Assembly: GCA_004123355.1 (NCBI GenBank)
Contig: SCHM01000004.1
Coordinates: 5,731,017 to 5,795,016, forward strand
Direction: 5' to 3'
Length of the DNA stretch: 64,000 nt
From: Amphirosellinia nigrospora
Taxonomy: Eukaryota; Ascomycota; Sordariomycetes; Xylariales; Xylariaceae
Shown: one piece after another, positions 32,460 to 35,205 of the stretch
How positions within the stretch are numbered: position 1 is the first letter of the stretch
Layout of the letters: each line of letters starts with the position of its first letter
Translations under genes and position numbers: made by a program
Notes under the pieces: model-generated
Told to the model about the DNA's origin: nothing
Databases searched by the model: none
Seen by the model: only the letters and a program-made list of their open reading frames with translations

Positions 32460-35205
32460 ATTTAATGCTTAAGTTTTATAAAGGAGGTACGACTAAATAA
32501 AAAGAAGGTTTTTTTTTATCGATAAAAAAATTTTTTATCCGGTTTTATATTTAAATAGGAATTTTTTTATTTTAATTAAAAATTATTTTATTATTTAAAG
32601 CTTTTTTTACTTTTTATGCTTAACGTATAATTTAGTATTTAAAGTTTTATATTTTATATTTTTTATTTTTATTTAATATTAATAATTTAAGCAACTTTTT
32701 AGAAAATATTTATTTATTTATTTATAACTATTTATATATTTTAATATTAAAAATAATATAAATCTAAAACTTACGATTTTATTATTATTAATTATTAATT
32801 ATTAATTACTAATTAGCTATTTAAGCTTTATTTAATTTATTTTATTTTAAAGTTTTGTTTTATTTATATTTTATTTTGCTTTTTAAAGCTTTTTTTAAGG
32901 ATTTATTTAGGCTTATTAATATTATTTTAGCCGAGTTTATTTTTTTCGATAATAAATAACTTTTATTTGTTTTAAATATAATTTATTAATAAATATTTAT
33001 TTTTTTTTATTTATTATTATTTTTTTTATATATTTTTTTCGTTTATAAATATTATTTATTTATTATAAACTTTAGCTACTAATTATATTTCTAGTTTTAA
33101 TTATTTTATTATAATATAAATATTTATTTATTTTATTATATTATTATTTTAAATATTACTTTTTATTAAATAATAATTTAATTTATTATATATATTAAAC
33201 GTTATAACTAAATAATAGCTAAATAACTATATATTAATTAATAGTTTATTATATTTTATTTTTATTTATTTTATTATTATACGGTTTATTATAATCGATT
33301 ATTTTATAGTTAGTTTTATAATATAAATATTTCGAAAACTATAAAAAAATTATTCGTAAATAACTTTTTAAATCGTAAAATTATATTTTATAACTAAAAA
33401 TTTCTTTTTTTAAAAAACTAACGTTTAATATTATAGTTATATTATAAAATATAATAAATAAAACTATCGATAATAAGCCCGTTAAAATTAACAAAATATA
33501 GCTTATATAAAAACTATTATATAAAAACTTTATATAATATTATTGAAAAATATAATATAAAATTATATAAAAGCTAAGCTATACTATATAATATTTTTAT
33601 AACTATTAAATAGTTTTTTTATTAATATTTTATATAAGCTACTGCTTATAAATATATTTTAAATTTAACGATTTTAATACTAGTTTATCGAATATAATAA
33701 CGAACTAAGTTTTAAAAACTATTATTTATTTTTAACCTTATATATAAACAATAAACTAATAAAATAATATAAACTATTTAAAATATTAATTATTTATTAA
33801 GCTATTTTACTTAGCAAAAAATAATCGTTGTTTTTTATTTTATATTCGAAAAAAAGTTGCTAAATATATATTATATTTAAAAATATATAAAATATGTTTA
33901 TTTATTATTATTAAATTTTATTATATTATTTATTTAAATATTAAAAAATAAAAAAAAAGATCGATTTTTTAAAAAAAATAGTATTTTTATATTTAGCAAA
34001 AGCTTAAAAAAAAATATAAATAAAAAACATAATTTTATTATATAATAATAATATATAACGTACCACACAAGCATCCTGGCCACACAAGTATCCTGGCCAC
34101 TTAAGCTTGGCATTTTATTAGAATTATAATAACTTTACGGAACTAGGCTTAATCGGGAAATAATTTATAGGGTTAATATATAACTATATTTAGTATATAA
34201 ATATAATTTTTTTAATTTTTTACGCTAGCTTAATAAGGTTATAAACCCCGGTTTTTAAAGTAAGCTAAAAATAAAGCTAAACTAAAATCCTAGTTAGTAC
34301 TAGCGTATAATTTTATTTAAAATTTCAAAAAATAAAATTAGATTTAGTACGTTTTTTATACTATATAGATTTTTTTCGAATTTTTTAAGCTAGATTTAAT
34401 ATTTCTTTTATTTTTTAAAGCATAAAAAAATCAATAAAAAAAAATAAAAAAAATAAAAAATAATAAAAATAATAAAAAAATAATAATTTTATACTTTAAA
34501 AATAAAAAGAAATATTAAATCTAGCTTAAAAAATTCGAAAAAAATCTATATAGTATAAAAAACGTACTAAATCTAATTTTATTTTTTTGAAATTTTAAAT
34601 AAAATTATACGCTAGTACTAACTAGGATTTTAGTTTAGCTTTATTTTTAGCTTACTTTAAAAACCGGGGTTTATAACCTTATTAAGCTAGCGTAAAAAAT
34701 TAAAAAATTATATTTATATACTAAATATAGTTATATATTAACCCTATAAATTATTTCCCGATTAAGCCTAGTTCCGTAAAGTTATTATAATTCTAATAAA
34801 ATGCCAAGCTTAAGTGGCCAGGATACTTGTGTGGCCAGGATGCTTGTGTGGTACGTTAAAAAAATTGCCGTAAAAAAAACTAAATATTGTTTGCTAATTA
34901 TTATTTTATTAAAATATATATTATTATTATAGCAAAAAAATCGAATAAATCTTATAGTTTATTTATAAAACGATAATATAGCTTTAATATATATTATTGC
35001 TATTAATAAAGCGGGCAATATATTAACGTAGTTACGTAGGAAAAAAAGCTTTATAAATTAAAGCAAAATAATAAAGCGCGTTAAAATAACTTATTCGGAA
35101 AAACTACGCTAATATAGCCGGCAACCTTAATTTGCTAAAGTATACTCGTAAATCCTAAAAACTTAAGCTTTTTTGCCCCTAACTTAAAAGGCCTTTAGTA
35201 TAATT
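32460..35205 (-). mobile_element. 1.9-kb degraded transposon unit, inverted copy interrupted by a palindrome
   Basis: The reverse complement of 6775-8690. The plus-strand start has AAAGGAGGTACGACTAA at about 32,482, and the family A end is GGCCTTTAGT at 35,191-35,200. The length, 2.75 kb, equals the 1.9-kb unit plus the 0.8-kb insertion at 34,058-34,856. The other copy supplies the exact empty site. No coding frame survives. Confidence 0.7.
34058..34856. mobile_element. 799-bp near-perfect palindromic element with TA target duplication (mariner/pogo-type MITE)
   Basis: The arms (34,058 to about 34,430 and about 34,490 to 34,856) are reverse complements that differ only in homopolymer length and near the A/T centre. 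The ends read ACGTACCACACAAG...CTTGTGTGGTACGT, with TA at 34,056-34,057 and 34,857-34,858. The undisturbed copy of the host repeat at about 7107-7145 has TTTTTTTATATATTATT at the same spot, which is exactly the flanks with one TA. Each tip carries a tandem CCACACAAGNATCCTGG pair. TA duplication points to Tc1/mariner/pogo transposition. There is no ORF. The tips keep C and G while the middle of both arms is A/T-rich yet identical, so the arms were homogenised after mutation. Confidence 0.85.

Follow-up and report, generated by a model that had tools for sequence, protein, structure and literature searches.

The window, a stretch of 64,000 nucleotides of Amphirosellinia nigrospora DNA, contains an extremely AT-rich repeat block that adjoins DNA of ordinary composition: in 1-kb bins, positions 1-36000 have 3-25% GC, mostly under 13%, and positions 36001-64000 have 37-61% GC, with a sharp switch between the two. 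At 34058-34856 lies a 799-bp palindrome composed of a 370-bp left arm (34058-34427, plus strand), an A-rich, asymmetric loop of 59 nt (34428-34486), and a 370-bp right arm (34487-34856, minus strand) that is the reverse complement of the left one, the arms having been delimited by inverted-repeat comparison and folding and the loop by folding. In inverted orientation the arms match at 99% (34056-34220 with 34694-34858), 98% (34208-34337 with 34578-34707) and 92% (34311-34427 with 34487-34603), and the palindrome begins at its 5' start with ACGTACCACACAAG and has the complement of this sequence at its other end. The strand is predicted to fold into a single hairpin of 366 pairs with a 59-nt loop at -392.4 kcal/mol, compared with -75.7 kcal/mol (sd 5.2) in 20 shuffles, and the tip motif, with up to three mismatches allowed, occurs four times in the window where none is expected; the two comparisons rule out a chance origin. 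The inverted-repeat matches and the hairpin energy bear out the near-perfect palindrome with arms of ~370 bp recognized in the preliminary description, which had also held the arms to be identical apart from homopolymer lengths; such length differences are present, but so are a few substitutions, chiefly near the loop.

The left tip (34058-34102, plus strand) is a terminal inverted repeat common to pogo/Fot1-type elements, in which CpA has been kept, and the right tip (34812-34856, minus strand) is the same repeat inverted. Two 17-bp units stand head-to-tail in each tip (34063-34096, plus strand; 34818-34851, minus strand), and those of the left tip are putative transposase binding sites. Only two ORFs of at least 40 aa touch the element, each extending beyond it, and Rfam models at gathering thresholds found no match in 33500-35500.

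The palindrome is flanked by TA on the left (34056-34057) and on the right (34857-34858), identified from the flanks of the family and from alignment with an empty site. This site, at 7111-7127 on the minus strand with its TA at 7117-7118, is the homologous unoccupied position in another copy of the host repeat, which is uninterrupted over 6603-8107 (minus strand). The flanks of the element, joined minus one TA, align with window positions 8107-6603 at 84.8% over 1553 bp and are ungapped where they join, which confirms both the empty site and the TA duplication; the insertion at TA proposed at the outset, with its empty site in the same window, holds.

Searching the source genome (48.1 Mb in 11 contigs) with the arm as query returned at least 72 matches, comprising at least 31 near-full-length copies (L031-L057, L060, L061, L065 and L070; 694-832 bp as cut), fragments (L058, L059, L062-L064), matches in the tip only (L066-L068) and one weak match (L069). 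The searches score the best candidates only, so that copy counts are lower bounds; a query from a second subfamily revealed no additional full copies among the at least 70 matches listed. Exact TA stands on both sides of 25 of the 27 copies with readable tips (the exceptions are L044 and L048), and the tip pattern matched 51 + 52 times compared with 3 + 3 for a control pattern. When 600-bp flanks were compared, counting as a match at least 85% over 120 bases, six flank pairs were alike and no two copies were alike on both flanks. The additional copies with the same tips that the preliminary description had proposed to look for are thus present, as near-full-length copies and as fragments. The family has the features of a MITE, being non-coding and present in many copies of similar length with transposon-like ends and a target-site duplication, and those of a foldback element, with long inverted repeats making up nearly the whole element around a short loop; its ends place this non-coding foldback MITE with the Fot1/pogo kind. 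Three subfamilies were distinguished, A (n = 7, including the window copy), B (n = 5) and C (n = 9), together with seven copies of mixed arms (L035, L037, L055, L044, L040, L060 and L053) and three divergent copies (L057, L061 and L065). Contig C6 holds 18 of the 31 copies, and six pairs of near-full-length copies, on C1, C6 and C9, lie 3-13 kb apart; this clustering could result from hopping over short distances, from host repeats in common or from AT-rich blocks. A TTAGGG-type telomere array terminates contig C5 (L069:1550-1831).

Tips of 43 bp are common to the MITE family and to broken pogo/Fot1-type elements carrying pieces of HTH_psq and DDE_1. One of these, L068 (C9:162382-164841), is 2,460 bp long with the same kind of ends, is flanked by TA on the left and TG on the right, and has a transposase broken by an insert, its HTH_psq (E 3.7e-11) and DDE_1 (E 3.1e-15) pieces scoring above cutoff and HTH_Tnp_Tc5 below it (20.3 of 22.2). 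The insert (element positions ~720-1396) is missing from L067 and L071, parts of it recur elsewhere in the genome, and it resembles a further repeat or several nested ones. L068 (L068:1585-4044, 2,460 bp) also contains CGTACG 16 times, spread over all three reading frames, where 500 order-2 Markov simulations give a mean of 1.2 and a maximum of 5; the motif occurs at 0.25 per kb in window positions 36001-64000 and at just a few sites in two AT-rich relatives. A 1,845-bp relative lies in L071; its transposase match is interrupted by stops (1 TAG, 10 TAA), and it lacks any ORF of 100 aa. Two piecewise protein searches of the genome (45 and 35 matches) found no intact transposase: stops interrupt 42 of the 45 and 34 of the 35, and the remainder are the broken pieces of L068 itself and two matches of ~50 aa. 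The window itself carries stop-ridden remains of pogo-type transposases in its AT-rich part, at 4295-4561, 27581-27739 and 28264-28581. The preliminary description had suggested a foldback MITE of a pogo/mariner element, which the TA sites, the shared tips and the HTH_psq/DDE_1 remains support, and had proposed looking for an autonomous transposase with the same ends; pogo-type remains with such tips were found, but no intact transposase.

We compared the tips with 13 coding-type tips over 43 bases in purine/pyrimidine code, to which RIP makes no difference. Four of the 13 match exactly, with zero purine/pyrimidine differences: L077 with the tip of subfamily A, and L066, L076 and L078 with that of C. 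The B tip has no exact match among them, its nearest relatives being L072, L073 and L075 with three differences; the L067 tip is two edits from C, and L068, L071 and L074 are unmatched (best 2-3, to A). Transposase-type remains lie ~1 kb from L077 (C6:7899419-7899661) and adjoin L067 (C4:2646740-2646964), and by position and resemblance L067 and L076 are probably the two ends of one element and L078 part of a coding element. Between the majority sequences of A and B the tips differ at 6 of 43 positions and the interior at 3 of 322 (p 0.00012), and between those of B and C at 8 of 43 and 9 of 322 (p 0.00021), while between A and C the excess in the tip is not significant (2 of 43 and 6 of 323, p 0.24). 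These subfamily differences may reflect exchange of tips with coding elements, and comparison of the ends suggests that the MITE is mobilized in trans by pogo-type transposases. The remainder of the arm is of another kind: L068, L066 and L067 match the arm query nowhere but in the tip, and the purine/pyrimidine alignment scores of this filler with four coding-type stretches fall inside the shuffled range. Descent of the filler from a worn-down coding element, as a deletion derivative alignable beyond the tips, is therefore not supported.

The preliminary description had contrasted an A/T-rich interior resembling RIPed DNA with tips that keep CpA, and dinucleotide counts agree: subfamily-majority interiors contain 3-5 CA+TG vs 20-23 AC+GT (2 CA+TG in the majority of all copies), and the corresponding tips contain 10-12 CA+TG vs 9-11 AC+GT. 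Relative to the majority sequences of subfamilies A, B and C (21 of the 31 copies), C has changed to T at CpA at 78 of 456 sites in tips and 26 of 145 in the interior, and at CpC at 5 of 278 and 14 of 541, respectively. The resulting order of C-to-T rates, 0.17-0.18 at CpA, 0.08 at CpT, 0.03-0.05 at CpG and 0.02-0.03 at CpC, is that of a repeat subject to RIP. RIP accounts for the composition, and inserted copies were RIPed again, equally in tip and interior. The CpA counts further support a founder whose interior was almost free of CpA before the family spread and whose tips were still fresh. Since CpA loss is equal in the tips and interior of present copies, protection of the edges from RIP does not account for the contrast in the founder and was rejected; the emptied interior with fresh tips instead points to a composite origin, renewal of the tips or strong selection for unmutated tips.

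The comparison of arm-to-arm with copy-to-copy identity, put forward at the outset as the measure of homogenization, is positive overall at sites that RIP cannot make. At 67 sites in 31 copies, counting transversions only and taking sites whose rarer state occurs on two or more arms, variants were carried on both arms of a copy in 152 cases vs 77.9 expected under random pairing, and on one arm in 236. When partners were shuffled across all 31 copies (columns 0-345), the within-copy transversion distance of 0.0164 compared with a shuffled mean of 0.0362, and none of 2000 shuffles was as low. Changes strictly private to one copy (columns 50-345, all 31 copies) number 101 on one arm and 15 on both arms; 11 of the latter are of non-RIP type, vs 0.09 non-RIP changes expected by a simple coincidence estimate. 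The 15 are distributed as two in L051, two in L056, four in L057 and seven in L065; of the 11 non-RIP changes, seven fall in the divergent single copies L057 and L065 and just four in the subfamily members L051 and L056. Private transversions at columns below 310 amount to 50 on one arm and 6 on both, and at columns from 310 onward to 13 and 0. Compared with the rest of subfamily A, the window copy has eight both-arm sites (five of non-RIP and three of RIP type), none of them strictly private to it, and two one-arm sites, the fewest one-arm differences among the 21 copies compared in this way.

Shuffles within subfamilies (21 of the 31 copies) give a weaker signal. In subfamily A, partners resemble each other more than random A arms do (a value as low arose in 28 of 2000 shuffles for transversions and in 12 for transitions); in B this holds for transitions (17 of 1981) and fails for transversions (705 of 1981), and partners in C are no closer than random C arms (220 of 2000 for transversions, 944 of 2000 for transitions). 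The weakness of this closeness indicates that much of the arm signal dates from the founders of the subfamilies.

Likeness of the arms also depends on position. In 22 of the 31 copies, transversions per pair, within and between copies, are 0.05 and 3.36 at columns 0-54, 0.18 and 1.56 at columns 54-140, 0.73 and 2.18 at columns 140-280, 1.09 and 2.99 at columns 280-345, and 0.59 and 0.56 at columns 345-385. Dividing within by between gives 0.01 for the tip, then 0.12, 0.33 and 0.37 as one moves down the arm, and finally 1.06 beside the loop; this set of 22 leaves out nine unlike-armed or divergent copies (L035, L037, L055, L044, L040, L060, L053, L061 and L065), the unlike-armed class having been defined after the distances were seen. 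With all 31 copies the ratios from tip to loop are 0.19, 0.34, 0.28, 0.70, 0.66, 0.53, 0.72, 0.99 and 1.44, and relative to copies of the same subfamily they are 0.17, 0.87, 0.58, 0.80 and 1.16, this weakening within subfamilies implying that the trend from tip to loop is mainly a pattern between subfamilies. The mean rank of partner closeness by region, 0.93, 0.84, 0.74 and 0.66 from tip to loop, was set aside as evidence because ties inflate its values. The outer arm is strongly homogenized, no homogenization is seen beside the loop, and the inner stem and loop are unhomogenized, the binned arm table having been drawn up without seven of the 31 copies. A marker in the inner arm (GC/CG, columns 351-352) never occupies both arms of a copy that carries it (0 of 11 and 0 of 9). 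Its phase relative to the loop, judged by eye at columns 345-395, is one way in L035, L037 and L055 and the other in L039, L052 and L053, which suggests inversion of the center or exchange between arms there. L035, L037 and L055 carry resembling pairs of unlike arms, and no similarity was found between the flanks of these copies, indicating that elements can move with unlike arms and without homogenizing. Since partners differ from random arms only in A and partly in B, and unlike-armed copies exist, copying between the arms is episodic, takes place in the mobile lineage and is largely over once a copy has inserted and been RIPed.

The explanation that we consider likely overall is that of a foldback MITE moved by pogo/Fot1-type transposases, with filler that was RIPed beforehand and with arm-to-arm copying in its mobile lineage. 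Transposases of this type (Tc1/mariner superfamily) would recognize the 43-45 bp tips and insert the MITE at TA in trans. The tip would be pogo sequence, and the rest of the arm a filler that RIP had stripped of CpA ahead of the family's expansion. Within the mobile lineage, one arm would be copied onto the other, mainly in the outer arm, so that a change on one arm would reach both; after insertion, RIP and drift would drive the arms apart again. There is good support for arm-to-arm copying in the mobile lineage, and the proposal in the preliminary description of either gene conversion or snap-back copying is upheld to that extent; as to the route, identity of the outer arm with an unlike center fits both repair of a tip break and snap-back. 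We slightly favor conversion after a break at the tip over snap-back primed in the inner stem, and by judgment give a little under half of the weight to a tip break repaired from the other arm, about a third to snap-back and about a fifth to template switching or mixtures.

If instead each subfamily had been born once, by snap-back of a single mutated arm copied into a palindrome, with no later copying, both arms would carry the changes diagnostic of the subfamily, as they do. That partners in subfamily C are no closer than random arms fits as well, and so does the unhomogenized state of the inner stem and loop, where the snapped-back 3' end would anneal. Against such single births, the B members L051 and L056 each have two strictly private changes on both arms, all of them reverse transitions, and partners in A are closer than random A arms. 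These observations argue for some copying after the subfamilies arose, although repeated snap-back still fits them, and we regard a single birth without later copying as possible but doubtful.

Ectopic exchange between dispersed copies alone, without copying between the arms of one element, is an improbable source of arm likeness. Copies that mix the arms of subfamilies (L035, L037, L055, L044, L040, L060 and L053) point either to such exchange or to retention; however, exchange alone predicts partners no closer than random arms, whereas none of 2000 shuffles over all copies was as close as the observed partners, and there are more private changes on both arms than the coincidence estimate allows. 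Parallel RIP at the same sites of both arms, in a genome where RIP is active and prefers CpA, is very improbable as the cause, as the main counts are of transversions and the private counts add reverse transitions, neither of which RIP makes; for the transversion sites it is refuted. Library or assembly chimeras can produce palindromes, but a fold-back artefact can be practically dismissed given the 31 copies, the TA on either flank, left and right flanks that differ, and a matching empty site.

Returning to arm copying in a mobile MITE, we offer more tentatively, and as rather improbable on present evidence, the idea that the palindrome serves as its own backup, each arm repairing the other and a RIP-damaged or newly captured tip being spread to both ends inward. 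Were this so, the CpA-poor filler could survive RIP and switch among several transposase lineages. RIP is a directional mutation and transversions are free of it, which lets the family serve as a clean natural experiment on the upkeep of arm likeness. The outer-arm bias, the unlike-armed copies and the tips that resemble different coding lineages turn the idea of conversion or snap-back into predictions for related strains, and suggest a route of persistence in a repeat-mutating genome, with a filler that has little left to mutate and tips that are kept fresh.

No description of this MITE family was recognized in the literature searched, which lay largely outside subscription journals; neither the kind of element nor the notion of repair templated by the other arm is new. 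In the cited parts of the report on Galileo, a foldback-like P element of Drosophila mojavensis, the repeats of one copy are 98-100% identical, and the authors propose repair templated by the other repeat, plus conversion among copies (PMC3573991). Galileo resembles the present family in its long terminal inverted repeats, its transposase-less elements of two repeats, its subfamilies and its chimeric copies of two subfamilies, but belongs to the P superfamily, makes 7-bp duplications and, as far as these parts describe it, has chimeric copies without matching duplications (PMC3573991). The MITE, unlike Galileo as there described, has TA duplications, is subject to RIP with an interior emptied of CpA, carries tips of types that resemble several coding lineages and shows a measured trend of arm identity from outer to inner arm. 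The Fot1/pogo elements of filamentous fungi are given, in the section consulted, as ~1.85-2.9 kb long with inverted repeats of 36-98 bp (PMC4994206); these are coding elements with a pogo-type transposase, whereas the MITE is a non-coding palindrome with their tips only. The cited account of the P-MITEs of Anopheles gambiae describes filler unrelated to the coding element, proposes that it is ectopic, and includes one family whose ends are related to two P subfamilies (PMC1562414). The tips of the present MITE are likewise tied to different coding subfamilies and its filler has no detectable relation to the coding elements, but the P-MITEs of that account are separate families plus one with hybrid ends, in contrast to a single interior with several tip types and homogenized arms (PMC1562414). 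Lastly, quasipalindrome template-switch mutations extend arm identity in imperfect inverted repeats (PMC3820800), a similar effect on the arms that is described, in the portion cited, in yeast mutants and not in a mobile element family. Within the literature searched, the family is therefore a variant of known elements, set apart by its RIP-emptied interior, its tip types and the measured trend along its arms.
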